64,000 nt of DNA from an uncultured Anaerolineae bacterium. Its GTDB lineage: Bacteria > Chloroflexota > Anaerolineae > Anaerolineales > Villigracilaceae. The position numbers and the translations under genes were made by a program. The notes beneath the pieces are model-generated. The model was given only the letters and a program-made list of their open reading frames with translations, did not search any database and was not told where the DNA came from. How positions within the stretch are numbered: position 1 is the stretch's first letter; each line of letters begins with the position of its first letter. The stretch covers positions 1-64,000 of the forward strand of contig CAILYI010000195.1 in assembly GCA_903838415.1 (NCBI GenBank), in the 5' to 3' direction. Positions 33,177 to 59,075 of this stretch are shown piece by piece.

Positions 33177-33190
33177 GGGGAAAACTCCGA

Positions 33191-42290: not shown

Positions 42291-44176
42291 GCCAGGCCCA
42301 GTTCCTTGAGCTTTTCGGGGGTGGGAATGCCGTCCGCGCTCCAGCCGCGCAGGGCGTAGTATTCATCCAGCATGAGTTGCAGTGGTACCACATTGCCTTC
42401 ACCGTGACCCTCCGGGTGGGGCTCCTCCGTCAGGCGCGGCGGCAGGTAATCGTCTTTGCGCGAAAATCCCAGCCGGGCGTTGAACATGCGCTCCAGGTTG
42501 AAGACGCGCTCGCCCATGCGGTAGGTTTCCTCGAGCGTGTATTTTTCTCCGATCACGGCGTTGTAGAAATCGGTGAAGACTTCCAGCCCGTTTTCGAGGA
42601 ACATGTAGGGGAATACACACAGCCCCAGGGATTCGATGAAGGCGGTCTCATCCTGATTTTTCTTGACTAGCGCGGGTTTGCCTTCGGGTGTGAGCGGATC
42701 CATCGGTTCTGGGATGCCGTTGATCTCACGCTGGATGGTGTTTCCGGTGGTATGGTTGCCGCCTTCCGGCGAGGTGGCGAACAGCAATCCCTGCCCGACC
42801 ATGGCGCGCGGATGGTAGGCGGAGAAGCCCTGGCCCTTGGAGCCCATGAAAACCTGCGGCGCGCCGTATTTTTCTGCCAGATAGCGGCCGCCGCGGCCTG
42901 CCTCCTGGCCGAATCCATCTCCGTGGGCGATCATTTCGAGCAGGCGGATGCTGGCGTCAGCGTCGCGCCACTCCAGCGGGAAGCCAATTTCCTTTTCGGT
43001 GATGAGTCCCATCTCGTACAGCTCCATCAACGCGCTGAGAGTCACGCCCGCGTCGATGGTGTCCATGCCCATCTCGTTGCAGATGTAGTTCATCTTGGTG
43101 ACGGCGTCGATGTCATTGATAAGCAGGTTCGAGCCGAAGGAGTAAAGCGACTCGTATTCCGGCCCGTCGCCGTGCCCCTGGTATTTCGAGTCGGCGGGCA
43201 GGCGCGTGTTGCGGGCGCAGTTCAGGGCGCAGGCCACGCAGCCCTTTTTGCGGATGATGGTGCGGTCGTACATGGCCGCTCCGCTGATCAAGTCACCGTC
43301 TTCAAAAAAACCGGCCCTGAAATTTTGGGTGGGCATGGCGTTGACCGCGCCGAGCACATCCACAAAGAGCGGAGTGCCAAATTCTTCAAAGACGAGGCCC
43401 AAATCCATCGTTTTGATATGATCCGCGATGACATTGGAGCGCAGAATTTCCTCCGGCTCGGCAATCTTGATGCCCTGCGTGCCACGCATGACGATGGCCT
43501 TGAGATTCTTGGAGCCCATCACCGCGCCGACTCCCGAGCGCGCCGCCAGGCGGTGCCCGTCATTGGCAATCCCGGCAAAGCGGACAAGGTTTTCTCCCGC
43601 TGGGCCGATGCAGCTCGTCTTGGTTTCCGAACGCTGCCGCGGGTTGACGGTCTGCTTGAGGGCGTGATCGGTTTCGACGCAGCTCAATCCCCAGTAGGGG
43701 GTGGCATCCTTCAGCTGGACTTTATCGTCGTTGATTGACAGGTAGACTGGCGAGGCGGCTTTTCCGGTGAAAATGATGGCGTCGTACCCGGCGGTTTTGA
43801 ATGCGCCCGGGAAGTAGCCACCGGCATTCGATGAGCAGATCGTACCCGTCAGCGGGCTCTTGGTGACGACGGTGTTGCGTCCCGAACTGAGCCCGAGCGT
43901 CATGGAGAGCGGGCCGTTGATGAAGATCAGTATATTCTCCGGGCTGAGCGGGTCGCAGTGGATGTCCAGCTCGTCGTAGAGAATTTTTGTCCCCAATCCG
44001 CGTGCACCAATGTACATGTGCGCCAGTTCCGGGTCAAGCGCTTCGCGTTTGATCTCGCCGGTGGTGAGATTGACGCGCAGGATGGTGCCCATCCAACCGT
44101 ACACTCCTGGATTTTTCGAAGGAGCTTGCCCTGGACTTGTGGAATGAGCCTGCCCTGAGCTTGTCGAAGGGTTCAT
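42287..44176 (-). CDS. tungsten-containing aldehyde ferredoxin oxidoreductase
   Basis: A 629-residue AOR-family enzyme oxidising aldehydes to acids with ferredoxin, or the reverse. The body starts GWMGTILRVNLTTGEIK, followed by pterin-binding blocks such as ARSGVGAVMGSKNLKAI. Cluster cysteines are Cys313, Cys316 and Cys320 in GCVACALNC, with a fourth in SLGLCVFPYMF. The start overlaps the ferredoxin-gene stop by ATGA. The first 22 residues (STSSGQAHSTSPGQ...) are encoded by a tandem intergenic-type repeat and are absent from the usual family start. ATG at 44092 (residue 29) is an alternative start. Confidence 0.92.
   Translation of the reverse strand: MNPSTSSGQAHSTSPGQAPSKNPGVYGWMGTILRVNLTTGEIKREALDPELAHMYIGARGLGTKILYDELDIHCDPLSPENILIFINGPLSMTLGLSSGRNTVVTKSPLTGTICSSNAGGYFPGAFKTAGYDAIIFTGKAASPVYLSINDDKVQLKDATPYWGLSCVETDHALKQTVNPRQRSETKTSCIGPAGENLVRFAGIANDGHRLAARSGVGAVMGSKNLKAIVMRGTQGIKIAEPEEILRSNVIADHIKTMDLGLVFEEFGTPLFVDVLGAVNAMPTQNFRAGFFEDGDLISGAAMYDRTIIRKKGCVACALNCARNTRLPADSKYQGHGDGPEYESLYSFGSNLLINDIDAVTKMNYICNEMGMDTIDAGVTLSALMELYEMGLITEKEIGFPLEWRDADASIRLLEMIAHGDGFGQEAGRGGRYLAEKYGAPQVFMGSKGQGFSAYHPRAMVGQGLLFATSPEGGNHTTGNTIQREINGIPEPMDPLTPEGKPALVKKNQDETAFIESLGLCVFPYMFLENGLEVFTDFYNAVIGEKYTLEETYRMGERVFNLERMFNARLGFSRKDDYLPPRLTEEPHPEGHGEGNVVPLQLMLDEYYALRGWSADGIPTPEKLKELGLA
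44122..44169. repeat. two tandem degenerate 24-bp repeats at the AOR 5-prime end
   Basis: Units 44122-44145 and 44146-44169 differ at a few positions. Read on the minus strand they contain the CTTCGACAAGCTCAGG-type motif known as a common intergenic repeat in several bacterial groups. Here they are in frame just inside the AOR start and encode STSSGQA/STSPGQA. Confidence 0.75.
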
Positions 44177-44667
44177 AGCCGCACCTCTTTGTAGAGTTGA
44201 GCGATTTTTTCAAGATATTCTTCGTCGGCTTCCGCCAGCGTCAGGGCCTGGGGTGCGCAGGCCTTGACGCACAGCGGGTCTTCGCAGACTTCGCATTTGA
44301 CCGCTTTTCCGTCCGTCAGGAACACGGCTTGATATTCGCAGGCCCGCACGCATTTGCCGCAGCCGGTGCAGGTTTCTTCGTTGATTTCCACGATATTCGT
44401 CTGCGGGTTGCGAGTGATGCAGCCTTCCACGGGACAGGCCGTTATGCAGGCAGCCGCATCACGAGGTAGTCCTGGTTCCTGTACGGGACATTGGAAGCAG
44501 ACATGCGCGGCATACAGGGTATCGTCTTCGTTTTGCGCTACGCGGATGCGGGCAATCGATGGGCGCGCTTCCACCACACCGCCTTTGCTAAACGTCAGCG
44601 AGCAGTAGAGAGTGCAAAGATGGCAAAACGTGCAACGCTCTTGTTCGAAAACGATGATGCGACTCAA
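44173..44667 (-). CDS. polyferredoxin subunit, four [4Fe-4S] sites (AOR electron carrier)
   Basis: A 164-residue iron-sulfur protein of the HycB/AOR-associated type. Cysteine groups are CTFCHLCTLYC, CFQC with CITACPVEGC, CTGCGKCVRAC and CEVCEDPLCVKAC, enough for four cubane clusters. No signal peptide or Tat motif is seen, so it is cytoplasmic. Tight coupling to the AOR gene marks it as the electron acceptor/donor of that enzyme. Confidence 0.9.
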   Translation of the reverse strand: MSRIIVFEQERCTFCHLCTLYCSLTFSKGGVVEARPSIARIRVAQNEDDTLYAAHVCFQCPVQEPGLPRDAAACITACPVEGCITRNPQTNIVEINEETCTGCGKCVRACEYQAVFLTDGKAVKCEVCEDPLCVKACAPQALTLAEADEEYLEKIAQLYKEVRL

Positions 44668-44670
44668 GGT

Positions 44671-45888
44671 TCACACTCCCACGCAGTTTTTGATCAGGCG
44701 CTCGAATTCGGGTGTGCGGCTGACGGAAACGGGATTGAAAACCATCGTGCCGTCTTCCATGCTTTGTTCAGTGAGTTGGTCGATGGTGGCGTCGTCGGTG
44801 GGGAAGCCGTATTCCTTGTAGGTGGTTTTTACGCCAACTTTGGCGTAAAGTTCCCTGAGCGCTTCGATGGCGCGGCGCCCCATCACTTCATCGGACGCGC
44901 CGTCATCCTTGACGCCCAACGCGCGCGCCACACTGGCATAGTGATGCGGAACTGCCTGCATGTTGTATTCCATCACATAGAGATTGGCGATGGCCACCGC
45001 CACACCGTGGTGGATGTGATGCAGCGCGCCAGCCGTGTGACCAATTCCATGGTCCGCGCCGGGCAGCGCAGTTTGGAAGGCAATGCCGCCCATGTTGGCA
45101 GCGATCAGCAGCTTGGAACGCGCTTCGAGTTCATTGGAATTATCGTGATAAGCGGCTTCGATGTTGTCTGCCACCATCTCAATCGCCCGCAGAGAAATCG
45201 CGCCGGAGATATCCTGCCGCTGGTCGGAGACGAAACTGCCGATGCAGTGCGTCATCGCGTCAAGCGCGGTGCCTGCCACGATGTGCGCTGGAAGCGTGCG
45301 CGTACATTCAGGGTCAAGCACCGCCACGCGCGGGATGAATTTATAGTCGCCGCAAATAATTTTCTTTTTCTTCGGGCGGTCCATGATGACCGCGCCCCAC
45401 GTCACTTCGGAACCTGTGCCGCAAGTGGTGGGAATGCAGATGATCGGCTTGGTTTCCTTCTGCACCATGTAGAAACCTTCGTAGTCCTCGACCTGCCCGC
45501 CCTCAGATTCGATGACCGCTGCCATTTTGGTCACGTCAATGACCGAGCCGCCGCCCAGCGCAATCCAAAAATCAATTTTGGCCTCGCTGGCGAGCTTCGC
45601 GATCTCGTAGACCTGTTCCTTGTCCGATTCGGGTAGGACGCTGTCGAAGACCGCCACCACTTCGCGCGACGAACCTTTGAGCGCATTGAGCAGGTAATCC
45701 AGTATGCCCGCGCTTTTGACGCCCGCGTCAGTAATCACCATGACCCTGTCCTTGCCCTCGAACTTCCAGTCCAGGTCCAGGTCAGACGGCAAATCGTTGA
45801 CCTTCCCATTACCGAATACGATGCGTGTTGGATTCCACCACTGGAATTCAGCACTGTGCACGGGCACATTACGATTGATCAGACCCAT
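44671..45888 (-). CDS. iron-containing (group III) alcohol dehydrogenase
   Basis: A 405-residue NAD(P)-dependent dehydrogenase. It has GGGSVIDVTK for cofactor binding, TTCGTGSEVTW, and metal ligands in GTALDAMTHCIGS and GADHGIGHTAGALHHIHHG. It interconverts an alcohol and an aldehyde. Followed 3 nt later by the AOR ferredoxin gene, it fits an alcohol-aldehyde-acid oxidation chain ahead of CoA activation. Confidence 0.9.
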   Translation of the reverse strand: MGLINRNVPVHSAEFQWWNPTRIVFGNGKVNDLPSDLDLDWKFEGKDRVMVITDAGVKSAGILDYLLNALKGSSREVVAVFDSVLPESDKEQVYEIAKLASEAKIDFWIALGGGSVIDVTKMAAVIESEGGQVEDYEGFYMVQKETKPIICIPTTCGTGSEVTWGAVIMDRPKKKKIICGDYKFIPRVAVLDPECTRTLPAHIVAGTALDAMTHCIGSFVSDQRQDISGAISLRAIEMVADNIEAAYHDNSNELEARSKLLIAANMGGIAFQTALPGADHGIGHTAGALHHIHHGVAVAIANLYVMEYNMQAVPHHYASVARALGVKDDGASDEVMGRRAIEALRELYAKVGVKTTYKEYGFPTDDATIDQLTEQSMEDGTMVFNPVSVSRTPEFERLIKNCVGV

Positions 45889-45936: not shown

Positions 45937-47733
45937 TCATCCCAAAAATTTTGTATCCAGTTCAACCGTCAAACTGGACGTGTCCATCAAGATACTGGTC
46001 AATGCCAGGGTCTTGGGCAACTCATAGCGGAAAAAATATCTCAGTGTGTGAAGTTTTCCCTGGTAGAAATCCGTCTCCGCCGGGGATTTTTCCAGCGCGG
46101 CGTGAGCGCTGAGGCCTTGAATCAGCCACTGCCAGGCCATCGTGATGACGCCAAACAGCTCCAGATAAAGCGTGGCATCGGCCAGGAAATGTTCCGTCCC
46201 GGCGGATTGCGACAGGCCGATTAGATGGGTGGTCACCTGCTCCAGGCTGGTCAGCGCCGCTTCGAGCTGGTTGGCCAGCGGCTGGAAGGTTGAAATCGCA
46301 CGGGCGCGCTCCAGCGTCTGACGGATTTCTGCCAGGTAAAGCTGGAAGGCCGCCCCGTCTTTGATGGTCACTTTGCGGCCCAATAAATCCATGCCATGAA
46401 TGCCGGTCGTGCCTTCGTGGATGGGATGAATGCGCGCGTCGCGGTAATACTGCTCGACCGGGAAATCGTCGCAGTAGCCGTATCCGCCCAGGCATTGCAG
46501 ACTCTGGCTGACGGATTGAATACCCATCTCGGACGGGTACGTCTTGGCAATCGGGGTCAGCAGATCGAGCAGGAGTTCGTACCGGCGTTTTTCGTCGCCA
46601 TCCGGCAGCACTTTGACCAGGTCGGCGTAGTACGAGCACTGCATCAACAAGGAGAGCGAACCTTCGACGACGGCTTTCTGGAACAGCAGCATGCGCTTCA
46701 CGTCAGCATGTTCGATGATGGGCGTCTGTGGCTTGGACGGGTCTTTCTCGGTCGGTTTGCGGCCCTGCAGGCGTTGGCGGGTGTAATCCAGCGCGGTGTA
46801 ATAGGCCGCGGAGGCAATCGCCGCCGCGCCCATGCCTACTCCCAGGCGAGCTTCGTTCATCATCTGGAACATGTAGCGCAGTCCCTGGTGCGGCTCGCCC
46901 ACTAGGTAGCCGCGGCAGTCGTTGTTCTCGCCGATGCTCAGCCCGAGAATGGGCGCGCCGCGATAACCCATCTTGTGATAGACCTCGCTGGCGGCGACAT
47001 CGTTCGAGACGAGTTTGCCGTTTTCGATGCGTTTCTTCGGCACCACAAACAGCGAAATGCCCTTTACGCCGGGCGGCCCGCCGGGGATTTTGGCCAGCAT
47101 GAGGTGGATGATGTTATCCACGCCGTCATGCTCTCCGGCGGAAGTGAAAATCTTGCGTCCGCGCATTTTGTAATGGCCGTTGGCGGTCGGTTCGGCGGTG
47201 GTTGTCAGGTCGGTTAGGGAACTGCCAGCCTGCGGCTCGGTCAACGCCATGGTGCCCTGCCATTCGCCGCTCAACAGTTTGGGGATGTAGGCGTCGATCA
47301 ATTCCTGTGAGCCAAAGTTGATGATCAGTCCCGCCGCGCCTTTGGAGAGGCCCGGATAGATAATTGCGGAGTAATTTGCGGCGGAAAAGACAAAGCTGCA
47401 GGCGTTATCCAGCATCAAGGGAAGCTGGAAGCCGCCGACAGATTCGGGGTGGATCGACCCAATCCAGCCGCCTTCGCCAAAGTCGCGCAGAATCTTGCGC
47501 ACCGCCGGATGCACTTTGACGGTACCAGCGGCCAGTTCCGGTGGCTGGCGGTCCATCTCCGCCAGGATGGGCAGGAAGGTTTCCTCGGCCATTTTCAGGC
47601 TGGTTTCCAGCACCATCGTGAACATCTGCCGGTCATGTTCGCGGTAATAGGCGTGTTTTGTCAGGGAGAGGAGATCGAATACCTCGTAGAGCAGAAATTC
47701 CAGGTTGCGTTTGCTGACAAATCTGGCGGTCAT
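45937..47733 (-). CDS. acyl-CoA dehydrogenase, long (DmdC/FadE5-like) form
   Basis: A 598-residue flavoprotein making the alpha-beta double bond in an acyl-CoA. It has the FAD and substrate block MALTEPQAGSSLTDL, KIFTSAGEHD, and the late YYRDARIHPIHEGTTGIHG followed by MDLLGRK with the catalytic base region. A C-terminal extension of about 130 residues is typical of the 600-residue group. The start overlaps the MaoC-gene stop by ATGA, tying it to that module. Confidence 0.92.
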   Translation of the reverse strand: MTARFVSKRNLEFLLYEVFDLLSLTKHAYYREHDRQMFTMVLETSLKMAEETFLPILAEMDRQPPELAAGTVKVHPAVRKILRDFGEGGWIGSIHPESVGGFQLPLMLDNACSFVFSAANYSAIIYPGLSKGAAGLIINFGSQELIDAYIPKLLSGEWQGTMALTEPQAGSSLTDLTTTAEPTANGHYKMRGRKIFTSAGEHDGVDNIIHLMLAKIPGGPPGVKGISLFVVPKKRIENGKLVSNDVAASEVYHKMGYRGAPILGLSIGENNDCRGYLVGEPHQGLRYMFQMMNEARLGVGMGAAAIASAAYYTALDYTRQRLQGRKPTEKDPSKPQTPIIEHADVKRMLLFQKAVVEGSLSLLMQCSYYADLVKVLPDGDEKRRYELLLDLLTPIAKTYPSEMGIQSVSQSLQCLGGYGYCDDFPVEQYYRDARIHPIHEGTTGIHGMDLLGRKVTIKDGAAFQLYLAEIRQTLERARAISTFQPLANQLEAALTSLEQVTTHLIGLSQSAGTEHFLADATLYLELFGVITMAWQWLIQGLSAHAALEKSPAETDFYQGKLHTLRYFFRYELPKTLALTSILMDTSSLTVELDTKFLG

Positions 47734-48209
47734 GCTTGGGGCTCCTGAGTGGGTCTTCTTCCGGCTACCGCGCGGGCGGTGAAAACGACAACGTCATCGT
47801 TCCTTTGATTTTGAATATTGTAGACGGCGGAAATCACGCCGCGCGCCTCATCTTTGACATCCAGTGCGGAGATTTTCATTGCGCAGTGGATGGTGTCGCC
47901 GATTTTGACGGGGTTGTAAAAGCGGACGCTGTCCATGCCGTAAAAGGCGATGAAAGATTTCGGCAGGTGGACGTGTTCTCCGAGCCGAAAGAGCAGGGCG
48001 GTGCCGATGGCGAGAGTCAACATGCCGTGTGCGATGCGTTCGCCAAATGGCGTGGATTTGGCGTACTCGACGTCGGTATGGAGCGGATGCCAGTCGCCCG
48101 TCAGCGAGGCGAAGTTGATAATATCCGCTTCGGTGATGGTGCGCGCCGGGGAGACAAAGCGCTCGCCCAGGGTGTAATCCTCGAAATAGAGTTTTTCCAC
48201 GCCGCTCAC
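47730..48209 (-). CDS. MaoC-like enoyl-CoA hydratase
   Basis: A 159-residue hot-dog-fold hydratase. Catalytic Asp and His are in SLTGDWHPLHTDVEYA, followed by FGERIAHGMLTLAIG. It would add water to an enoyl-CoA to give a 3-hydroxyacyl-CoA. It overlaps DUF35 and acyl-CoA dehydrogenase genes by ATGA on each side. In cholesterol side-chain breakdown ChsH2 is a MaoC domain fused to DUF35, so this adjacency is meaningful. Confidence 0.9.
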   Translation of the reverse strand: MSGVEKLYFEDYTLGERFVSPARTITEADIINFASLTGDWHPLHTDVEYAKSTPFGERIAHGMLTLAIGTALLFRLGEHVHLPKSFIAFYGMDSVRFYNPVKIGDTIHCAMKISALDVKDEARGVISAVYNIQNQRNDDVVVFTARAVAGRRPTQEPQA

Positions 48210-48685
48210 TCCTGTGCTGGCTTGAAATACCGAATCGCCAGAATATTCGCTTCTGGTGATTCGGCAAAGACGGGTTGCATGCGCAGGCCGATTTTTAGAT
48301 CTTCAAAATCCACTTCGCTGAGCAGATGCGCCATGCCTGTGTCCGCGCCGTCGAGTTTGATGATGCCGTAGAGCACCGGCGCGGACGGAAGCGGCTGGGG
48401 TGGGGTGTAATTCGGGCTGGTGAAGGTTTCCAGCGTGCCGAGCGGCCCGATTTCCAACAGGTCACTCTCCGAAAGCTGGGAGAAGCAGCGTCCGCAGGTG
48501 TTGCGCGGCGGCCAGTAGGTCAGGTTGCATTTCGGGCAGTGACTACCGAGGATTTTTTGCTCGTCGCGCAGGGCGATGAAAAAGCGGCTGCCAACTCTCC
48601 CAGCGTAATAGCGGCTGGAAGCGGTGATGTGCTGGTCAACCTCGAAGGAGTCCCGTTTCTCGGACGGGGCAAAAATGTCGGTCAT
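48206..48685 (-). CDS. DUF35 OB-fold protein with zinc ribbon (copy 4)
   Basis: A 159-residue protein with zinc ribbon CPKCNLTYWPPRNTCGRC and OB-fold (GTLETFTSPNYTP, VLYGIIKLDGADTG). Its start overlaps the stop of another DUF35 gene and its own stop overlaps the MaoC start, both by ATGA. It is likely to bridge the hydratase and a thiolase-like enzyme. Confidence 0.87.
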   Translation of the reverse strand: MTDIFAPSEKRDSFEVDQHITASSRYYAGRVGSRFFIALRDEQKILGSHCPKCNLTYWPPRNTCGRCFSQLSESDLLEIGPLGTLETFTSPNYTPPQPLPSAPVLYGIIKLDGADTGMAHLLSEVDFEDLKIGLRMQPVFAESPEANILAIRYFKPAQE

Positions 48686-49155
48686 GCTTCACCTATCGGA
48701 GCGAAGTGCAGGATGTCGTTCAGGTCGCCCGTGCGTTCTGCCTGTGGACGCAGGATGGCGCGCACGCGCATGCCCACCCGCACCTTTTGAATGTCGGGTT
48801 CGACATCAATAAAATGCTCGATGGTTGAGTAGGCGCCGTCGAGCCGCACGATGCCGTAGGTGTAGGGCGTTTTGTGCGTCTGTCCGGTGGTCGGGTCGGT
48901 CAGCGGCAGGTGGACGATGCTGAAGCCCATCAGCATGCCTTCAGGGCTGAGCTCAATCCACTCGCCATTTTTGACATGACAGGCGGCGCAGACGATGCGC
49001 GGCGGCATTTGCACCCGTCCGCAGCTGGGGCATTTAATGCCGAAAAATTTTCCATTGTCGCGCAGCTCGGTCAGGAAGCGCGCCATGTAGCCGCCCGCCG
49101 CGAAGCGATAGGGCACATCCACAATCATGGGAATGTTGACGAGTTCACTGTCCAT
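48682..49155 (-). CDS. DUF35 OB-fold protein with zinc ribbon (copy 3)
   Basis: A 157-residue protein with zinc ribbon CPSCGRVQMPPRIVCAAC and OB-fold (GMLMGFSIVHLPL, YTYGIVRLDGAYS). The ATG at 49155 overlaps the type A thiolase-like stop (TGATG). It corresponds by position to DUF35 copy 1 in the first module and is probably the dedicated partner of the adjacent thiolase-like pair. Confidence 0.87.
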   Translation of the reverse strand: MDSELVNIPMIVDVPYRFAAGGYMARFLTELRDNGKFFGIKCPSCGRVQMPPRIVCAACHVKNGEWIELSPEGMLMGFSIVHLPLTDPTTGQTHKTPYTYGIVRLDGAYSTIEHFIDVEPDIQKVRVGMRVRAILRPQAERTGDLNDILHFAPIGEA

Positions 49156-50324
49156 CAGTCCTCCCACTTTTTCGAGAGCGCGGTCATGACCGTCCAGTTG
49201 GTGCCGCCGTAGGCGGTGGTCAGCGCCCAGTTGACATCCTTCGGGACCTGGTGCTCGCCCGCGTCGCCGCGGATTTGCAGGGCGGCTTCCCAGATGCGCA
49301 GCATGGCCGAGGCGCCGATGCAGTTGGTCGAAAGCACGCCGCCCGACGGGTTGACCGGGATCGGCCCGTTGATTTCGGTCTGGCCTTCTTCAATCATGCG
49401 GAAACCTTCGCCGCGTTTGCACAAGCCCAAATCCTCGTACCAGACCAGTTCCGCCCAGGTGGCGGGTTCGTAGACTTCAAAAACATCGAAAAACGTGGCG
49501 GGATTTTCCACGCCCAATTTTCTGTAGAGTTTTTCGGCGCAGACCCGCGAGAAGATTGGCCCGGTGTTGGTGACGTCGCGCCAGTTGAGTTCGAACTGCT
49601 CGTTGTGCGCCGTCTCCGTTGCGCGGATCCAAACGGGTTTCTCGCAGCGTTCGAGCGCGGTTTTCTCGTCCGCCAGGATCATGGCGCAGGCGCCGTTGGA
49701 TGTCGGGCACATATCCAGCAGGCGGATGGGATAGGCCAGCATTTTCGAGTCGAACACGTCCTGGATGGTGATATCCAGCTTCAGGTGGGCGTACGGATTC
49801 TTGCGGGCATTCTGCCGCGCCTTGACCGCTACCATCGCTGAATGTTCTTCGCGCGCGCCGAAGGCCTGCATGTACGATGCGCCCATCATGGCGAAATAGC
49901 CTACTGCCGCGCCTGCCAGCGACCGACCGTACAGCGGGTGCGCCACGCCGCTCAGGATGGCGCTGCTGTCGCCTTCTTCCTGTTTTTCAAAGCCGATGCA
50001 CAGCACCCGGTCGAACAGACCGCTGGCGATGTGATGCGCGCCCGCCACAATCGTCGTCGCGCCGACCGTGCCTCCGGTGGTGATTTTCAAGCCGGGTTTG
50101 CCATACGCGCCGGTCGCGTCCGCCAGCCAGCAGTCGGTCAGGTGACAGCCTTCAAAAAATTCCATGTTGCCCAACAGCACCGCGTCGATGTCGTCCATCG
50201 TCATGCGCGCGTCCGCCAGAGCAGCGCGCACCGCTTCGTTGACCATCTCGCCCTGATTAACGTCATGCCGGCGCGAGGCGTGAACGGTCTGCCCGCCGCC
50301 GATGATTGCCACTTTTCTTTTCAT
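49155..50324 (-). CDS. thiolase-superfamily protein without the catalytic Cys, type A (copy 2)
   Basis: A 389-residue protein clearly paralogous to the type A protein at 35558-36721. It shares the start (VAIIGxGQTxHxSRRxDVN pattern), ITTGGTVG in place of the Cys motif (81-88), and NPSGGVLSTNCIGASA at the C-terminus. The active-site Cys and GHP histidine are both missing. It overlaps the type B gene by ATGA. Retro-aldolase or non-catalytic binding roles are the main options. Confidence 0.85.
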   Translation of the reverse strand: MKRKVAIIGGGQTVHASRRHDVNQGEMVNEAVRAALADARMTMDDIDAVLLGNMEFFEGCHLTDCWLADATGAYGKPGLKITTGGTVGATTIVAGAHHIASGLFDRVLCIGFEKQEEGDSSAILSGVAHPLYGRSLAGAAVGYFAMMGASYMQAFGAREEHSAMVAVKARQNARKNPYAHLKLDITIQDVFDSKMLAYPIRLLDMCPTSNGACAMILADEKTALERCEKPVWIRATETAHNEQFELNWRDVTNTGPIFSRVCAEKLYRKLGVENPATFFDVFEVYEPATWAELVWYEDLGLCKRGEGFRMIEEGQTEINGPIPVNPSGGVLSTNCIGASAMLRIWEAALQIRGDAGEHQVPKDVNWALTTAYGGTNWTVMTALSKKWED

Positions 50325-51481
50325 CTGGACCGGGCCTCCCGTCCCAATACGATGACGCATTGATGCTGGCCGCAAAATCCGCTGTGACCTTGCGCCACGG
50401 CGATATCCACATCTTTGACTTGATATTCCCCGGCCTGCCCCATGATCTGGTTGGCGGCTTCCGCCACCCGGTTCAGCCCCGCCACATTGGCCGGGACTCC
50501 GCCCAGCAAGCCCCCCGAAGGATTGACCGGCAGTTCACCGGAACGGGCGGTCAATCCTTCGTCAGTGATGCGGCCTGCTTCCCCTCGTTTACACAGGCCC
50601 AAACCCTCCAGCCAGAGCAGTTCCTGGTAGGAGAATTCATCCCCCAGTTCAACCAAATCCACTTGGCGGCGCGGATCGTTGATCCCGGCCATGCGGTAGG
50701 CCATCGCGGAGGCCTTTTCCAGTGCCATGCAGTCCGCCAGGTCGCGGTCGCCGAGATAGTGCGCATCGTAACAGGAGCCGATGCCCAAAATCCAGGCGGG
50801 ATGGTCGGTGATTTGTTTGGCGCGTTCTTCGGAGGCCATGATCAGGGCCACGGCGCCATCGGTATCGGGAGCAAGATCCAGCGCGCGCAGCGGGTCGGCG
50901 ATCAGCGGCGCTGCCAGAATTTCATCCAGCGACAAATCCCTGCCGTTATGCATGACCGGGTTGAGTCGCGCGTTGGAGAGATTTTTCAGCACCACGCGCG
51001 CCGCCTGCGCTTCAGTAATTCCATACACTGACATGTAGCGCCGCGCCTGCAGCGCTGCCGCCGTGGTGAAATCAAATCCAAGCATGCGGGTGTAGATCGG
51101 GTCGAAGGCGGTGTTGTTGACGATGTTGCGGCTGGTTTGCGACATCTTGGTATGCGCCAGCAGCAACGTGCAGTCGAACTCGCCCGAGAGAATGCCGATG
51201 GTGGCGTAATACGCGGCGGTTGAGCCGTCCATCGCCATCTTTTCCTCGTTACGCAAATGCCCGCCGATGACATCGGTGATGCCGATGTCGGAGATGGTTT
51301 GCCCGTCCCAGATGTCGTGCGAGCAACTGATGCTGTTATCGATGTCGCGCCCGATTTCAAGTCCCGTCTGCTGAAGGACCTGCTCGATGGCTTCATACGC
51401 CAGCTCGCCAACATTGACGTCGGCGCGCTTGGGGCTGAAACGGGTCTGGGCCACACCTACAATCGCCACGCGGTCTGTCAT
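50321..51481 (-). CDS. thiolase-superfamily protein without the catalytic Cys, type B (copy 2)
   Basis: A 386-residue paralog of the type B protein at 36721-37860. The nucleophile region is MAMDGSTAAYY. The region FSYQELLWLEGLGLCKRGE matches the type B signature, and the end GHSGFCGQHQCVIVLG parallels GSHGPCGQSHCVWILG. It precedes and overlaps the type A gene, so the gene order B-A-DUF35 is the same in both modules. Confidence 0.84.
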   Translation of the reverse strand: MTDRVAIVGVAQTRFSPKRADVNVGELAYEAIEQVLQQTGLEIGRDIDNSISCSHDIWDGQTISDIGITDVIGGHLRNEEKMAMDGSTAAYYATIGILSGEFDCTLLLAHTKMSQTSRNIVNNTAFDPIYTRMLGFDFTTAAALQARRYMSVYGITEAQAARVVLKNLSNARLNPVMHNGRDLSLDEILAAPLIADPLRALDLAPDTDGAVALIMASEERAKQITDHPAWILGIGSCYDAHYLGDRDLADCMALEKASAMAYRMAGINDPRRQVDLVELGDEFSYQELLWLEGLGLCKRGEAGRITDEGLTARSGELPVNPSGGLLGGVPANVAGLNRVAEAANQIMGQAGEYQVKDVDIAVAQGHSGFCGQHQCVIVLGREARSR

Positions 51482-51602: not shown

Positions 51603-52787
51603 TTAAATTCTTTCAAAAATCGTCGCAATACCCTGGCCGCCGCCGATGCACAGCGTCGCAAGTCCATACCGTCTACCAGTGCGTTTGAGTTGATGCATGA
51701 CTGCCAGCGCTAGGCGTCCGCCTGTCATGCCGTTGGGATGACCGAAGGCGATCGCGCCGCCATTGGGATTCCATTTTTCGGGGTCAACGGCATGACCTTG
51801 GCTTGCCAGAATTTTCATCACTGCCAGCGTCTGCGAGGCGAAGGCTTCGTTGCATTCAACGACATCCATGTTCGCCAGCGCCAGTCCGGTTTTCGCCAGC
51901 ACTGCCTTGACCGCATCCACGGGCGCGATGCCCATGTATTTTGGCTCGCGCGCCGTCACGGCGCAGCCGACAAAACGCGACAGCGGTGCGTATCCCAGCT
52001 CGTCCGCTTTTTCTTTCGACATGAGCAAAAGAGCCACGCCGCCATCGTTGAGTCCGGATGACGAACCTGCCGTCACGGTGCCATCTTTTTTAAAGGATGG
52101 ACGCAGGCTGGTCAGTTTTTCGAGACTGGTGGCGCGTGGATGTTCATCCCGCTCGAAGATGAGCGATTCGCCCTTCGGCTGCGGCACCGTCACCGGAACA
52201 ATTTCCTCGCTGAAATATCCCGCTTCGATGGCGGCGATGGCGTGTTCCTGGCTGCGCAGGCTGAACCGATCCTGCTCCTCACGTGTGATGTCGAATTCTT
52301 CCGCCAGTCCTTCGGCGATGATGCCCATCGGGACATCGGTATCCGCATCCGGGCCGACTTCGCGCGTGATCCAGGCGTTCGGCGTCAGCGCGAAGGGCGT
52401 TTTCTGGCGCTGCATCAGGTGCGGTTGGGTGCTCCAGCTTTCGCATCCGCCCGCGATGTAAACATCCCCAAACTCGGCGCGGATGAAGGCCGCCGCGGTG
52501 TTGATGGTTTGCAGCGCGGAGCCGCACTGCCGCTCGACAGTCTGCGCGGGCACCGAGAGAGGAAATCCCGCCTTGAGCGCCGCCCAGCGTCCGATATTGA
52601 CCGCCGCGTTATTGGTGCAGGCGTGACCGATGAGAATGTCGTTCACCATCTCAGGGTTGAGCCTGGTTTTTTCGAGCAAACCTTTCAGGGCAAAGGCCGC
52701 CAACTCCTCCGGGCGGAAGGATGACAAAGAGCCGCCCATCCGTCCAATGGCTGTCCGCGCGCCGTCAATGATGACCACTTCTTTCAT
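51603..52787 (-). CDS. acetyl-CoA acyltransferase (FadA/AtoB-type thiolase), catalytically complete
   Basis: A 394-residue thiolase. Nucleophilic Cys88 is in VERQCGSAL. NEAFASQ, FGHPNGMTGG and the second Cys in LCIGGGQG are present. The ATG at 52787 gives the standard MKEVVIIDGARTAIGR start. It would carry out the final thiolytic step on straight-chain 3-ketoacyl-CoA. Confidence 0.92.
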   Translation of the reverse strand: MKEVVIIDGARTAIGRMGGSLSSFRPEELAAFALKGLLEKTRLNPEMVNDILIGHACTNNAAVNIGRWAALKAGFPLSVPAQTVERQCGSALQTINTAAAFIRAEFGDVYIAGGCESWSTQPHLMQRQKTPFALTPNAWITREVGPDADTDVPMGIIAEGLAEEFDITREEQDRFSLRSQEHAIAAIEAGYFSEEIVPVTVPQPKGESLIFERDEHPRATSLEKLTSLRPSFKKDGTVTAGSSSGLNDGGVALLLMSKEKADELGYAPLSRFVGCAVTAREPKYMGIAPVDAVKAVLAKTGLALANMDVVECNEAFASQTLAVMKILASQGHAVDPEKWNPNGGAIAFGHPNGMTGGRLALAVMHQLKRTGRRYGLATLCIGGGQGIATIFERI

Positions 52788-52813
52788 GGGTTTCTTCCCT
52801 CTCTTGCGAAGCG

Positions 52814-53356
52814 TTATTCCGCAAGGTTGAAGTAAATATCTGTCGGCTGGAGTTTCGAGTTGCGCCGATAGCGCCCCAGCACCTTTTTGCCGATCCAACT
52901 GATGTCAGCCTGATCCGTGTCAACGCCCAATAAGCGGCCCAGGAAAAGGGTGTCGCACTGCTCAAACTCGACCTGAATCAAAACGTAGGGGCATTCGGGC
53001 AAAAAGGCTTCCGAACCAAAATGGCAAACGGTGAAAGCATGGATCACGCCGCGAGGTTCAATTTCCACCCACTCGGTTTCCTTGCCGGAATACATATCGT
53101 GGGCGCGCGGGGTGGCGTAGGTATAGCCGCTCTCCGGCTCCCGGCAGACGATGAAACGCTTGTTGGTCAGGGCCGCGAAGAAGGGCGAATCCTTGCCGTA
53201 CGAGTAGTTGTAATCGATGGAATAGGGGGCTTTGATCACGATCGGCGACATCGTTTTCAGGGAGGAAAGATCATCGCCGCTGGGGAAGGGCAGCCCGTAG
53301 ACGGTGGTGCCTTCCAGGTTTTCTTCGATAATAGGGGAAATGTTTTTCTTGGACAT
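52814..53356 (-). CDS. OB-fold (DUF35-like) protein lacking the zinc ribbon
   Basis: A 180-residue protein coupled to the SCPx-like gene (9 nt gap). The C-terminal half reads as a DUF35-type OB-fold (GVIHAFTVCHFG, YVLIQVEFEQCDTLFLGRL). The zinc-ribbon position has only one Cys (FIVCREPESGYTYATP) and no CxxC pair. An N-terminal extension of about 45 residues is unlike the other four copies. It is probably the partner of the adjacent thiolase-like protein, in a metal-free form. Confidence 0.72.
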   Translation of the reverse strand: MSKKNISPIIEENLEGTTVYGLPFPSGDDLSSLKTMSPIVIKAPYSIDYNYSYGKDSPFFAALTNKRFIVCREPESGYTYATPRAHDMYSGKETEWVEIEPRGVIHAFTVCHFGSEAFLPECPYVLIQVEFEQCDTLFLGRLLGVDTDQADISWIGKKVLGRYRRNSKLQPTDIYFNLAE

Positions 53357-53365
53357 GGGAGTCTC

Positions 53366-54724
53366 CTATTGCTCGCTTTCCAAAATGCTGACGGTGACGT
53401 AGGTGCCTGTGCCCGCGTGCGAATGGATTACGCCGCGCTGGGCATCGGGCACTTGCAAAGTTGGGTCGCCGAAATGTTTTTCGATCGTGCCCTGTAGCTG
53501 CCAGGTGGCAAAGACTCCTTGCATCAAGCCCGTCGCGCCGACCGGGTGTCCGCAAGCGATCAGGCCGCCAGATGGGTTGACCGGGCAAACCGGCTTTTCC
53601 GGCAGGCTAAGCCCGTAATCGATGCCGGGCATAAAAGTCTTACCGCTGGCAGCAAATGTCCCGCCTTCGCCGTAGCGGCACAGGCCCATATCTTCATAGG
53701 TTTGGATTTCGGAAGATGTGTAGGCATCGTGCAGCTCGACGAAGTCAATTTCTTTGAGCGGGTCGCTGATTTTGGCGTTTTTATAGGCTTCGCGGCTGGC
53801 CATGCGTCCAGCGCGAAAAGAATGAACGCCCGGATAGCGGAAACCGCGTTCCCAGAGTTCCTTGTAATAGGCGCGCGAGTCGTCATCCGTTTCATTGGGC
53901 AGGGCGTTGTACTTGTAAAACTCGTCAAAAGATTGGTGCGGACGGTCGGCCATGCGCATGGCATCCGTGCCGCGCCCAATTCCGGAGACCAGCACGCGCG
54001 GCAAGCGGCGTCCGGCTGCTTTTTCCAGTTTGGTCAGGCCTTCTTCGGAGCAGAAGATTACCGCCGCTGCGCCATCGCTCATCACGCAAATATCGTTGCG
54101 AGTCAGCGGCCAGGCCACCATCGGCGATTCGCGCACATCCTGGATGGTCAGGCGCTGTCGTTTTTGGGCGTAGGGATTATGGTAGGCGTTGATGTGGTTC
54201 TTGACGGAGACATGCGCCAATTGTTCGACGGTCGTGCCAAATTCGGCCATGTGGCGCGTCACCATCATGGCGTAGTAGCCGGAGTAAAAGCCGCCGACCG
54301 GATAATCGAAGGAAACATCCGAAGCCAGGGCGATGAATTCATTGCCTTTCCAGGTTTCCACATGACTCATCTGCTCGAAGCCAAAGCTCAGGCAAATATC
54401 CATGTAACCGGAGGCAACGGCCTTCCAGCCTTCCTGGAAGCAGATGCCGCCGGTGGCTCCGCCGCCTTCCACCCGGTGGGATGGTTTCGGGCACAGGCCC
54501 AGGTAATCCTGAACCATGATGCCCGCCATCAGTTGACGGGTGAAATGATCAGAAAAGTACGAAGCTACACTGCCGTCCACCAATTCAAAAAACTGGGGAT
54601 GATCGATCCCGATGTCAGCCAGGGCGTAATCGTAAGCTTCCTTGACCAGACCGGGGAACACTTTGTCGGGGCGGGCTTTGGCAAATTTGCTTACACCGCC
54701 CGAAACTACATAAACAGGTCGCAT
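53366..54724 (-). CDS. SCPx/thiolase-like protein with Gly at the nucleophile position
   Basis: A 452-residue thiolase-superfamily protein. Compared with SCPx thiolase, the block CATG is here GATG (HRVEGGGATGG, residue 89), so the nucleophile is lost. The HDAF-like motif (VELHDAYTSSE) and GHPVGATG, with its His, are kept. This mix differs from the type A/B proteins, which lost both. It may act as a retro-aldolase or as a hydroxyacyl-CoA binding enzyme. It is coupled to the zinc-free OB protein. Confidence 0.82.
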   Translation of the reverse strand: MRPVYVVSGGVSKFAKARPDKVFPGLVKEAYDYALADIGIDHPQFFELVDGSVASYFSDHFTRQLMAGIMVQDYLGLCPKPSHRVEGGGATGGICFQEGWKAVASGYMDICLSFGFEQMSHVETWKGNEFIALASDVSFDYPVGGFYSGYYAMMVTRHMAEFGTTVEQLAHVSVKNHINAYHNPYAQKRQRLTIQDVRESPMVAWPLTRNDICVMSDGAAAVIFCSEEGLTKLEKAAGRRLPRVLVSGIGRGTDAMRMADRPHQSFDEFYKYNALPNETDDDSRAYYKELWERGFRYPGVHSFRAGRMASREAYKNAKISDPLKEIDFVELHDAYTSSEIQTYEDMGLCRYGEGGTFAASGKTFMPGIDYGLSLPEKPVCPVNPSGGLIACGHPVGATGLMQGVFATWQLQGTIEKHFGDPTLQVPDAQRGVIHSHAGTGTYVTVSILESEQ

Positions 54725-54747: not shown

Positions 54748-55533
54748 TCAGTAGCCCTTGAACGCGGGTTTTCTCTTTTCAAGGAAAGCGTTCATGCCTT
54801 CGACGCGATCCTGGGTACCAAAACAGAGTGAAAAACAGCGCGCCTCGATTTCGAGCGCTGTTCGCAGGTCGGCCTGTGCGCCGTTATTGAGCGCGACTTT
54901 GGCCATGTGCAACGCCACCGGCCCTCGGGCGGCGATCTTCTGATAGATTTTTTCGACGGCGGCATCCAGTTGGTCAGGCGCCACGACCTGGTTGACCAGC
55001 CCGATATTCAACGCTTCCTGCGCGGAGATATGGTCGCCGGTGAAAATCAGTTCCTTGGCTTTGCCCATCCCGACCAAACGCGGCAGGCGCTGAGTCCCGC
55101 CGTAGCCGGGGATAATTCCCAGCTTGATTTCGGGCAGCCCCAAAATGGCGGTATCCGCCGCGATGCGGATGTCGCAGCTCAGGGCCACTTCCGTCCCGCC
55201 ACCCAGCGCAATCCCGTTAATGCGGGCGATGACCGGCTTGGGAAAATTTTCAATCTCGGAACAAATCGCCTGTCCCTTGGGAACTTCGCTCAAGGTTTCG
55301 ATGTAGCCCTGCCCACGCGCCATGATGGAGATGTCGCCGCCGGAGATGAAGGCTTTCTCGCCCGCGCCGGTCAAAACCACCACCCGGATGCTTTCATCCG
55401 TTTCGATGTCTCTCAAAGCCTGTTGAATTTCCAACATCGTCTGGAAGCGAATCGCGTTTAGAACCTGCGGCCGGTCAATCGTGATGGTGGCCACGCTGCC
55501 CGATTTTTCGAGCCGGATATCTTCGTAACTCAT
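54748..55533 (-). CDS. enoyl-CoA hydratase (crotonase family)
   Basis: A 261-residue crotonase. The oxyanion-hole block is SGGDISIMA. Both catalytic Glu are present, in GGGTEVALSCDIRIA and PEIKLGIIPGYGGTQRLPR. It ends with EKRKPAFKGY as usual. The ATG at 55533 lies 10 nt after the dehydrogenase stop. It gives the S-3-hydroxyacyl-CoA used by that dehydrogenase; the MaoC enzyme of the same cluster may act on another intermediate. Confidence 0.92.
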   Translation of the reverse strand: MSYEDIRLEKSGSVATITIDRPQVLNAIRFQTMLEIQQALRDIETDESIRVVVLTGAGEKAFISGGDISIMARGQGYIETLSEVPKGQAICSEIENFPKPVIARINGIALGGGTEVALSCDIRIAADTAILGLPEIKLGIIPGYGGTQRLPRLVGMGKAKELIFTGDHISAQEALNIGLVNQVVAPDQLDAAVEKIYQKIAARGPVALHMAKVALNNGAQADLRTALEIEARCFSLCFGTQDRVEGMNAFLEKRKPAFKGY

Positions 55534-55543
55534 GCCTGCCTCT

Positions 55544-56434
55544 TTAAAAGATCTTGAACGGCGTCTTGCTGCCGTCGGGCTGGTAATCGTAAAAGCCCTT
55601 GCCGTTTTTGCGGCCGAGACGTCCTGCTTCCAGCATCTTGCGATACATGATGGACAGCCGGTCGCTCTCCAGCCCCGTATACTCATGGATGGCGTCCTGC
55701 GCCATTTGGATCACGTCGAAGCCGCCGAAATCCGCCAGCTCGCAGGGACCCATCGGGTACCCGGCGCCCAGCTTCATGGCCGTGTCAATCTCTTCGGGTG
55801 TGGCGACTCCGTCCAACACCATCTGCGCCGCTTCCTGGTACAGGCGTCCCAGCAGCCGGTTGACGATAAAGCCGGGCAGGTCTTTGCACTTGATCGGCGT
55901 CTTACCCAACTGCTGGCAGACGGCCAGAGTCGTTTCCACGGTTTCAGCCGAGACGCCCAGCGGCAGGACCACTTCCACCAGTTTCATCACCGCGGCGGGA
56001 TTGAAGAAATGTGTGCCAATGCACTTATCGGGGCGCTTTGTCGCCCCGGCGATGGCAGTCACCGGCAGGACGGATGTGTTCGTTGCAAAGATGGTGTGTG
56101 CGGGGCAGAACCTGTCCAGGTCGGCAAAAGTTTTTTGTTTCAGATCCAGCTTCTCCGGGATGGCCTCGATCACAAAATCTGTATCTTTGACGGCGCTTTC
56201 CAGATCCGTACTGACGCGCAAACGGGCCAGCGCCGCCTGTCCATCTTCCGCGGAAATTTTCCCCTTCGCCACCAGGAACTTTTCCACGTTTCCCGTGATT
56301 TTTGCCAGCGCCTTGTCCAAAAATTCCTGGCTGACATCGTACAGGCTCACGTCAAAGCCACTTGTGGCGGCCATCTGGGCGATGCTGTGTCCCATGGTGC
56401 CGGCTCCAAGCACGGCAATACGGTTAATTGACAT
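55544..56434 (-). CDS. 3-hydroxyacyl-CoA (3-hydroxybutyryl-CoA) dehydrogenase
   Basis: A 296-residue NAD-dependent enzyme. It has VLGAGTMGHSIAQMAA, NTSVLPVTAIAG, the catalytic His in THFFNPAAVMKLVE, and the C-terminal domain with GYPMGPCELADFGG. AAGGAG precedes the ATG. With the crotonase and thiolase it gives a complete lower beta-oxidation cycle. Confidence 0.94.
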   Translation of the reverse strand: MSINRIAVLGAGTMGHSIAQMAATSGFDVSLYDVSQEFLDKALAKITGNVEKFLVAKGKISAEDGQAALARLRVSTDLESAVKDTDFVIEAIPEKLDLKQKTFADLDRFCPAHTIFATNTSVLPVTAIAGATKRPDKCIGTHFFNPAAVMKLVEVVLPLGVSAETVETTLAVCQQLGKTPIKCKDLPGFIVNRLLGRLYQEAAQMVLDGVATPEEIDTAMKLGAGYPMGPCELADFGGFDVIQMAQDAIHEYTGLESDRLSIMYRKMLEAGRLGRKNGKGFYDYQPDGSKTPFKIF

Positions 56435-56500: not shown

Positions 56501-58033
56501 TTAATAAACACCGTAATCCTGACCGGTAATTTCAGACGCGCAAATTAGCCCGGCAGCGCAGGCGCAGTCCATCGCCACGCCATAACCCTTGACCGTGTCG
56601 CCCGTGAAGAACAACCCTTCGAGATTGGGCGCGCGCACTGGCGTCTTGAGCGTGCCCGCCTGGTTGACATCCTTGGCCACGCCTTCCAGCCGCCAGCTGA
56701 CCGGGAACAGCGCCCATTCGATGCTTTCTTTGAATCCCGGGTAGCGCCGTTCGAGATACTCAACGATCTGCTCGCAGGCCCAGAACATCAGCTCCTTGTC
56801 GCGGGCTTCGTCTTCAGTTACCGGAGCGTAGGCCGTCAGCAGGTGTTTTCCCTCGGGCGCGCACAGCGGGTCGGTTTGCGATTGAATGTTCCAGCACATG
56901 TAAATGTCGTGCGAGAAACGATTTCCCTTGGGGATCACGAGCGTGTCCTTCATCCCCAGTTTCCACTGCTCTTGCGGCAGCGCGAGCGATTTCAGACCAA
57001 AATACGGCGCGATCGAGCCGTAACTCTTCAACTTTTCGGTGCGGTTGACATATTCCACCGGAAAAAGCGCCCGGTCGATATAACGGAAGGTTTCCTGGGT
57101 AGGGATATTACTGACCACGATCGGGGCCTCGACCTCGATCGTGCTCCCGTTGTTCCGGCGGATTTTCACGCCTCGAACTTTGCCCTCCGCAACCAGGATC
57201 TCCTGCACCGTTGTTTCGAGCCACAACTCCCCGCTAAAATGCAGGAAGCGGTCGCGCACCGAATCCATCCACTGCTGGATGCCGCCCACCGCAAACCCCG
57301 ACGGATACCTCGCCACCCCCGTCTTGAATCGCGGATTGATGACTTCGCCGAAATAGCGGAAAATATCGCCAACCGAGATTTCATCGGGATCGTTGATGGT
57401 GGTGATCAGCGTCCCGACCGCATGCAGCATTTCGTACAACACATGCTGACGGTCGATGCCCCGCTCGCGGCACCACTGCGCCAGCGAAACGGATTCAAAC
57501 CTGCGGAAATCTGCCTCGCCCATCTTCATCGCCGAAAAATAAAAATCCAAAAACGACGATTCGTTTTCTTCCACGATCGCGTTGATGCGCGGGTCCAGTT
57601 TCCCGGCATGAAAATCCAGGTACCAGTCCTCGTCAATGTAGGTGGCGTTGACATTTCCCGCAAATCGCACGCCCGCCTGCTCGCCCGACCCGATGATTTG
57701 ATCGAGGTCGTAAAAATATCCGCGCCCGTTGAGCGAGACGCCGTGATAGCCCAAATCCAGCCGGTAGCCGTCAAGCAATCGATTCTGTTGAATTTCGGGG
57801 AAGGTGGGGATGGTTTTCGCCAGCCAGCAATACTGCTGGCCCAGCATGTCGCGATACCAGGTTTCGCCGTGCTCGAGAATTTCGCGTCCACCGAGCGTCT
57901 TGGCTCGCCCGCCAACGCGGTTTGACTTTTCAACCAGCAAGACTTTACGACCCTGATGGGCCAGCAGCGCAGCAACCGTCAATCCGCCCACACCTGCTCC
58001 AATTACGATGGCGTCGTAAAGATTGGTTTTCAT
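56501..58033 (-). CDS. FAD-dependent amine-oxidase/phytoene-desaturase-like oxidoreductase
   Basis: A 510-residue flavoprotein. The dinucleotide motif AIVIGAGVGGLTVAALLA and VLLVEKSNRVGGRAK open it, and the C-terminal FAD block is EGLFFTGDTVKGYGVAMDCA. The family includes carotenoid desaturases and isomerases and also retinol-saturase-like enzymes. ATG at 58033 has GGAG 8 nt upstream; GTG at 58042 overlaps the previous stop. Together with the lipocalin-like protein encoded upstream it could act on an isoprenoid or other hydrophobic substrate. Confidence 0.82.
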   Translation of the reverse strand: MKTNLYDAIVIGAGVGGLTVAALLAHQGRKVLLVEKSNRVGGRAKTLGGREILEHGETWYRDMLGQQYCWLAKTIPTFPEIQQNRLLDGYRLDLGYHGVSLNGRGYFYDLDQIIGSGEQAGVRFAGNVNATYIDEDWYLDFHAGKLDPRINAIVEENESSFLDFYFSAMKMGEADFRRFESVSLAQWCRERGIDRQHVLYEMLHAVGTLITTINDPDEISVGDIFRYFGEVINPRFKTGVARYPSGFAVGGIQQWMDSVRDRFLHFSGELWLETTVQEILVAEGKVRGVKIRRNNGSTIEVEAPIVVSNIPTQETFRYIDRALFPVEYVNRTEKLKSYGSIAPYFGLKSLALPQEQWKLGMKDTLVIPKGNRFSHDIYMCWNIQSQTDPLCAPEGKHLLTAYAPVTEDEARDKELMFWACEQIVEYLERRYPGFKESIEWALFPVSWRLEGVAKDVNQAGTLKTPVRAPNLEGLFFTGDTVKGYGVAMDCACAAGLICASEITGQDYGVY

Positions 58034-58038
58034 TCGGG

Positions 58039-59052: not shown

Positions 59053-59075
59053 GGGCAATGGCCAATTATTACTTT

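Follow-up and report, generated by a model that had tools for sequence, protein, structure and literature searches.

Which reaction is catalysed by proteins that keep the thiolase fold but have lost the residues of thiolase chemistry? The question is raised by a 64,000-nucleotide stretch of DNA (the window) from an uncultured Anaerolineae bacterium of the Villigracilaceae (GenBank assembly GCA_903838415.1, contig CAILYI010000195.1, positions 1 to 64,000 of the forward strand), in which two genes for Cys-less thiolase-fold proteins, here called A and B, are followed by two DUF35 genes, D1 and D2. These four genes belong to a quartet that is kept across bacteria and archaea, and its products probably constitute a heteromeric, cofactor-free retro-aldol C-C lyase built on the thiolase fold, with B as the catalytic subunit.

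The gene quartet and its active sites

All genes concerned lie on the minus strand at the positions named in the preliminary description, whose run of six overlapping genes from 51481 down to 45937 is borne out by coordinates and junction letters. A (50321-51481, 386 amino acids) and B (49155-50324, 389 amino acids) match Thiolase_C_1 in Pfam. D1 (48682-49155) and D2 (48206-48685) both match zf-ChsH2 and OB_ChsH2_C, each with a complete C4 zinc ribbon (CxxC...CxxC). They are followed by a hydratase gene (47730-48209; MaoC_dehydratas in Pfam, with a GDxxPLH motif) and by a gene for a long acyl-CoA dehydrogenase (45937-47733; ACAD with Acyl-CoA_dh_C, a long C-terminal domain). Head-to-tail overlaps can be read directly: ATGA between A and B, TGATG between B and D1, ATGA between D1 and D2, GTGA between D2 and the MaoC gene, and ATGA between the latter and the dehydrogenase gene. 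B probably starts with the ATG at 50324 and D1 with that at 49155; the longer open reading frames (ORFs) listed for both are mechanical calls.

That both thiolase-fold proteins lack the nucleophilic Cys had been pointed out before and is confirmed by alignment with PDB entries, in which the nucleophile loops read MAMDGSTAA (A) and ITTGGTVG (B). The loss is in fact wider. A has GDEF in place of the HDCF element and GVP in place of GHP, where B has YEPA and N-C-I-G-A. Neither protein retains any of the three signature residues of thiolases (nucleophilic Cys, HDCF His, GHP His). With the Cys and both catalytic His gone, A and B were rejected as Cys thiolases.

What replaces these residues is strictly conserved in B. 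The B-family set comprises 87 sequences (80 loci, five plasmid loci and two from the window) and the A-family set 78 rows, loci with a short or missing A being left out. Throughout the B family (87/87) a Tyr stands at the HDCF-His position, a Glu two residues before it and an Asn at the GHP-His position, while Gly occupies the Cys position in 86/86, one further row being gapped; in the window these are Tyr285, Asn334 and Gly85. Both His columns belong to seven B-specific polar positions, and His is found at both in 13/13 Cys-containing relatives (the long-branch row own_C53 left out). The A family has the Tyr in 37 of its 78 rows, and in 77 of them an Asp directly preceding the place of the lost Cys (Asp85 in the window). 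Since A mostly lacks the Tyr and B keeps it invariantly, B is probably the catalytic subunit of the pair and A likely its non-catalytic partner.

Two Ltp2-model proteins, from Nocardia farcinica and Pseudomonas japonica, served as Ltp2 reference rows, and both have Tyr at both His columns. The Asn of B aligns with the Ltp2 Tyr that follows GEA, presumably the Thermomonospora residue Tyr344, and the Pro of the B motif YEPA lies at the place of the Sal Cys, Sal itself being outside the alignment. Tyr285 falls in the same column as the Tyr of the Ltp2 motif YDHF, and a passage of PMC12329534 describes the Tyr of YDCY/YDHF as the essential base in Sal and Ltp2. The initial suggestion that the pair carries out a non-thiolase reaction resembling those of Ltp2 and Sal is supported by the Tyr at this position in 87/87 B rows.

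Could another Cys act as the nucleophile? Frequent Cys residues of B are found at 206 (22/22), 213 (17/22), 302 (16/22) and 227 (7/22). This candidate was rejected because 206 and 302 are also commonly Cys in Cys thiolases (8/13 and 9/13) and both Ltp2 rows share the Cys at 206. Cys213 is enriched in B and might conceivably have a role.

Predicted structures

The AlphaFold2 monomers of A and B are confident (pLDDT, the predicted local distance difference test, 89.1 and 92.3), and both match the SCP2-thiolase fold, with Ltp2 and Sal among the matches (B against 6ok1_C: Z 45.0, 2.8 A over 369). A common fold is no proof of function, and the matches bring two other reactions into view.

Some relatives of condensing enzymes that lack the Cys are decarboxylases or decarboxylative enzymes, and the A/B pair might be one too: the nucleophilic Cys is lost with the fold retained, and for the trypanosome SLP, one of the fold matches, a passage of PMC12329534 says that decarboxylation had been demonstrated earlier. 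This would leave the 87/87 conservation of a Tyr at the Ltp2/Sal base position, and the loss of both His, to be accounted for, and no carboxylase was seen among the scanned proteins of the catabolic island around the quartet; we consider a decarboxylase improbable. Still less credit is given to an enzyme like PhlABC/MucABC or archaeal AACT-HMGS, acting as a C-acyltransferase or in condensation. Thiolase-fold subunits and an OB-fold protein make up MucABC and the Methanothermococcus complex; both complexes, like PhlC, are strong fold matches, and PhlABC is named among DUF35 complexes (PMC12329534, in part). However, a C88S mutant among the structure matches suggests a catalytic Cys in that family, whereas the nucleophile position is without Cys in both A and B, and the island is catabolic in content.

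Phylogeny

A tree was built from 72 proteins, namely 22 of the 87 B rows, 21 of the 78 A rows and 29 others, with own_C53 and A_L077 on long branches. In this superfamily tree, of the kind proposed in the preliminary description, a placement of A and B among Cys thiolases with a second pocket Cys was not found, the pocket not having been examined in a complex. A and B together form one clade (100/98), composed of an A clade (100/100) and a B clade (100/99), with Ltp2 outside in the best tree. A and B thus appear as sister clades, a relation well supported in the best tree and yet not beyond doubt, because a clade of B with the Ltp2-like rows is not rejected (p-AU, from the approximately unbiased test, 0.094); A, B and the Ltp2-like rows make up one side of a weak branch (63/58).

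Within these clades lie actinobacterial pairs, the proteins passing PRK07937 in A and those passing PRK08313 in B; three such pairs pass both cut-offs. The Tsukamurella locus encodes an F420-dependent oxidoreductase, an enoyl-CoA hydratase, an AMP ligase, an OB-fold protein, the two thiolase-fold proteins, a P450 and a steroid thiolase, an order that resembles the gene listing around Rv3515c-Rv3523 in the relevant part of PMC6429209. Because models, lengths and gene order fit, the actinobacterial proteins inside the A and B clades are taken as Ltp4 and Ltp3, respectively. The plasmid proteins are presumably Ltp3 and Ltp4 as well, going by models and gene order. Judged by tree and models, the closest characterised relatives of A and B are therefore Ltp4 and Ltp3 with their double-DUF35 neighbour, and not Ltp2, with which kinship had been assumed earlier.

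This placement makes it conceivable that the quartet is a sterol enzyme proper, carrying out the Ltp3-Ltp4 reaction on C24-branched sterol side chains in an anaerobic sterol degrader. Shared clades are not all that speaks for it: Ltp2 also occurs in two sources of A/B-type genes, the genome of Pseudomonas japonica and a Nocardia farcinica record, and PMC6678751 describes, in the section concerned, how in anaerobic Sterolibacterium aldolases replace thiolytic side-chain steps, with a phytoene dehydrogenase-like gene in one cluster. Against it, the Ltp2 model was found in two of 12 genomes or records searched, a weak argument as most of these are metagenome-assembled genomes (MAGs) and one is an 86-kb plasmid; two CoA-transferase-fold subunits of the island (32319-34210, minus strand) match no NCBIfam model at 1e-10; and the B family reaches Lokiarchaeota, Bathyarchaeota and syntroph-type MAGs. 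On balance, we regard the sterol enzyme as unlikely.

The conserved unit

Which genes travel with A and B was examined in 80 named loci, the top 80 among at least 594 pattern matches, so that the counts describe close relatives. After 19 loci near contig ends had been dropped, 61 usable loci were left, including two from the window's own genus (L114, L115); L060 holds both of the quartet types described below, the second of which was counted and then lost to the contig-edge rule. An A-like gene lies upstream of B in 60/61 loci, and at least two adjacent DUF35 domains are found in 58/61. These figures were obtained with a looser overlap rule, adopted because long ORF starts overlapped; a first count under a stricter rule gave A in 54/61 and exactly two DUF35 ORFs in 53/61. 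Among all 80 loci, the commonest orders are A-B-D-D (35) and D-A-B-D (27). A DUF35 gene about twice as long is present in three actinobacterial loci, and two OB-fold stretches were seen in three of the four long DUF35 proteins scanned (two of them actinobacterial), the fourth having one OB-fold and two zinc-ribbon stretches.

The other neighbours are far less constant. A hydratase of either MaoC or crotonase type occurs in 37/61 loci, any acyl-CoA dehydrogenase in 28/61, a protein of the BKACE family (beta-keto acid cleavage enzymes) in 28/61, an acyl-CoA synthetase in 28/61, and an aldehyde:ferredoxin oxidoreductase (AOR) in 6/61, two of these six in the window's genus. A window-like MaoC is encoded anywhere in 8/61 and the long dehydrogenase in 3/61; neighbours were queried with the window proteins, and remoter MaoC proteins or dehydrogenases may be missed. 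The conserved unit is the A-B-DUF35-DUF35 quartet and not the dehydrogenase-hydratase-aldolase order. The steroid side-chain gene order to which the locus had been likened is a local feature, though in its favour MaoC and a long dehydrogenase recur near a quartet in L063 and L103. The distances within A and within B correlate (r 0.72 over 78 pairs; 0/999 permutations as high), which is weak evidence for contact between the two proteins because neighbouring genes share their history.

Proposed function

From gene content, motif replacement, conservation, tree and monomer folds we infer a complex, its chemistry, its direction and its substrate. A, B, D1 and D2 would assemble as a heteromeric C-C lyase, with no cofactor, in which A, a pseudo-active paralogue, completes a dimer with B and one zinc-ribbon DUF35 subunit flanks each thiolase-fold subunit. 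The dehydrogenase and the MaoC hydratase of the island would make the 3-hydroxyacyl-CoA. Tyr285 of B would then take the proton from its beta-hydroxyl group, the C-alpha/C-beta bond would break in a retro-aldol reaction, and the acyl-CoA enolate would be held and reprotonated in the pocket where Asn334 replaces the thiolase His. The reaction would yield a short acyl-CoA together with a ketone or an aldehyde.

Such a cut would be needed where the beta carbon is branched, giving a tertiary alcohol beyond the reach of 3-hydroxyacyl-CoA dehydrogenase; a passage of PMC11321319 states that oxidation can go no further at a tertiary alcohol, which the aldolase Ltp2 cleaves. A branched substrate is suggested for the window because the island also has ordinary beta-oxidation enzymes. 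Retro-aldol cleavage of a probably tertiary 3-hydroxyacyl-CoA is hence the most likely function, and the cleavage of a 3-hydroxyacyl-CoA put forward in the preliminary description stands as the best reading.

Several observations weigh against a retro-aldol lyase. B has neither of the second catalytic residues that have been reported, the second Tyr of Ltp2 (Tyr344) and the Cys of Sal (Cys304), and the Cys of its TNCIGA motif is Cys in 20/87 and Pro in 67/87 B rows, too variable to be a conserved acid. In the fold comparison, Ltp2 and Sal rank below other SCP2-type thiolases and an archaeal AACT. A and B score below the NCBIfam cut-offs for Ltp4 and Ltp3 (191.3/419 bits for A with PRK07937, 400.4/514 bits for B with PRK08313). 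The scarcity of the window-like MaoC and long dehydrogenase genes at other loci points the same way. The island moreover encodes a hydroxyacyl-CoA dehydrogenase and two Cys thiolases, making ordinary beta-oxidation available, and a hydantoinase-B type protein (PF02538) was found in 0/3 genomes searched, so that the fate of the ketone is unexplained.

If the retro-aldol function holds, its interest is plain. Anaerobic breakdown of branched chains needs a route past a beta carbon that cannot be oxidised, and a heteromeric type of retro-aldolase known from sterol-degrading actinobacteria would be present as an independent module in numerous anaerobes and archaea. Annotators would also have reason to doubt whether pairs labelled "thiolase domain-containing protein" are always thiolases. 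The active-site changes, His to Tyr and His to Asn, are open to point mutation.

The second quartet and the catabolic island

Quartet 1 is part of a 27-kb island of catabolic genes that run on the minus strand from about 32.3 to 59.1 kb, adjoined by a MerR-type regulator ORF. While the preliminary description placed quartet 1 correctly, it left out a second quartet of the same kind in the same island (35076-38443), with the order D4-A2-B2-D5. D4 (37934-38443) is a zinc-ribbon DUF35 protein whose real start is probably further in than that of the listed ORF; A2 (36721-37860) is the presumed partner subunit; B2 (35558-36715), of the catalytic type (YLPY, TNCIGA), is 45% identical to B; and D5 (35076-35561) is the other zinc-ribbon DUF35 protein. 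Each quartet adjoins a Cys thiolase gene: that next to quartet 2 (38398-39621) was recognised from a Thiolase_C match in the genome search, its Cys being read from the sequence, and that next to quartet 1 (51603-52898) is BktB/PcaF-like by its best models. A close version of the second quartet with the same neighbouring Cys thiolase is found in Desulfatibacillum alkenivorans DSM 16219 (L086).

On the low-coordinate side of quartet 2 lie the CoA-transferase genes mentioned above and a BKACE-family gene (34223-35074). Between the two quartets are genes for an AMP-forming acyl-CoA synthetase (39624-41471), an AOR (42287-44176) with an adjoining 4Fe-4S protein (44173-44667), and an iron-containing alcohol dehydrogenase (44671-45888). 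The AOR was also considered as a BamB-type benzoyl-CoA reductase and this was rejected, BamB being the weakest of nine PDB matches. It could point to an aldehyde as product, by analogy with the bile-acid route, or may serve only to oxidise an alcohol growth substrate. An ORF of 155 amino acids between AOR and synthetase (41541-42008) has no Pfam match at 1e-5 and is kept in two congeners. The high-coordinate part encodes a probable crotonase-type hydratase (54748-55539; assigned via its homologue L048:9566-10351, which matches ECH_1), a 3-hydroxyacyl-CoA dehydrogenase (55544-56434), a CrtI-like FAD oxidoreductase (56501-58042) and a CrtC/AttH-like lipocalin (58039-59109).

The last two genes are linked to the closest quartet subtype. 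Among the seven loci whose B is 78-82% identical to that of the window, the lipocalin is present in six and the flavoprotein in four, the seventh locus being a 3-kb contig. CrtI-like and CrtC-like genes follow this subtype in the MAGs L057-L060; L061 and L063 have the lipocalin without a CrtI-like match. Compared alone with the PDB, the CrtC-like protein finds AttH at only E 0.036, not in the top row, and as a profile it gives E 0.00067 and 0.0034. PF07143 matched 7/7 aligned relatives (E up to 1) and the window protein at 25.5 bits, with a cut-off of 22.5.

These neighbours, themselves putative in function, make an isoprenoid a possible substrate. On a broader and more doubtful reading, the quartet would be a general oxygen-independent lyase for beta-branched 3-hydroxyacyl-CoA in bacteria and archaea, of which the island would use two in turn on an isoprenoid chain. 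The CrtI-like and CrtC-like proteins might prepare the isoprenoid; the alcohol dehydrogenase and AOR, with the acyl-CoA synthetase, would turn the alcohol into the acid and activate it; and the 3-methyl-2-enoyl-CoA would be hydrated before retro-aldol cleavage frees acetyl-CoA and a methyl ketone, the model case being phytol to phytone. No enzyme for this step was found in the literature searched on isoprenoid or squalene degradation and on phytol/phytone.

Further genes of related or other kinds were noted. Within the island, a region at 52814-54724 encodes another thiolase-fold protein without the Cys (RVEGGGATG, HDAY, GHP kept; PRK06365-like) and, as its companion, a DUF35 protein lacking a zinc ribbon; this pair is missing from the island of two congeners (G002 and G005). 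Elsewhere in the window's own genome (G000:C23:5165-5599), a thiolase-fold protein has Gly for Cys (IEAAGASG) and lacks the GHP His; a DUF35 gene is close by. Sugar-type genes (SIS, URO-D, ROK, GFO/IDH/MocA) lie outside the island on its low-coordinate side (22181-29765).

Distribution and probable exchange

In the window's family, B is found at more than 600 bits in 3/152 genomes, all of the window's genus, with nine more at 305-332 bits. Its closest relatives (78-82% identical) come from seven MAGs titled Syntrophales, Syntrophobacterales, Deltaproteobacteria, Desulfatitalea and Spirochaetes. Because B is closest to MAGs from outside the Anaerolineae, the island has probably been exchanged horizontally. 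The window's own assembly (G000) has 8.6% contamination; both quartets are also present on one 231-kb contig of the cleaner congener G002. In three Dehalococcoidia loci, L065, L066 (12762-15624) and L072, Ltp2-like genes stand beside the quartet. In L066 and L072 two of them lie close together, of which one has YDAF and the other lacks the Tyr; they may form a second heteromeric aldolase.

Comparison with known systems

SCP2-type thiolases and archaeal AACT (6hsj, 6esq) share the fold of A and B, but they carry the Cys, HDCF and GHP-type His that A and B have lost. The benzoylsuccinyl-CoA thiolase BbsAB has a thiolase-fold subunit of the same superfamily branch and a DUF35-type partner (PMC12329534, in part); BbsB, however, keeps Cys, HDAF and GHP. 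A and B were rejected as BbsAB, scoring 107.3 and 144.7 bits against an NF053628 cut-off of 750.

In Ltp2-ChsH2 and Sal-Shy, too, a thiolase fold is bound to DUF35 and a Tyr occupies the column of Tyr285; the nucleophile loop of Ltp2 is likewise without Cys. In these systems, as far as described in sections of PMC12329534 and PMC11321319, the centre is a homodimer and DUF35 is fused to MaoC, whereas the window has separate genes. Their second residue is Tyr or Cys, while B has Asn at the GHP column, and Ltp2 forms a clade separate from A and B in the best tree, although one clade of B and Ltp2 is, as noted, not rejected. Nor does the dehydrogenase correspond to ChsE: ChsE1-ChsE2 is a heterotetramer of two different subunits, whereas the window encodes a single FadE5-like protein of 598 amino acids whose top PDB matches are acyl-CoA dehydrogenases of 591-614 amino acids, FadE5 among them.

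The nearest system is Ltp3-Ltp4 (Rv3521-Rv3523 order), which resembles the window in having an A-like gene next to a B-like one together with two DUF35 domains, in falling in the same clades, in lacking the thiolase Cys and in the ExYxP motif on the Ltp3 side. It differs in having one long DUF35 gene and a shorter Ltp4 with HAPF (in the three actinobacterial loci), where the window, in an Anaerolineae genome, has separate DUF35 genes. PMC6678751, citing Wilbrink 2012, refers in the passage concerned to Ltp3-Ltp4 as a heteromeric aldol-lyase that releases acetyl- or propionyl-CoA from campesterol or sitosterol, C24-branched sterols. A heteromeric version with separate subunits, as envisaged in the preliminary description, is therefore right as to the separate genes and not new as a kind of enzyme. 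No report of the quartet outside actinobacteria was found in the literature searched (open-licence papers), nor a print source there for what the present analysis adds to the known enzyme: the spread to anaerobes and archaea, the apparent origin from sister paralogues, the invariant active-site swap and the double quartet.

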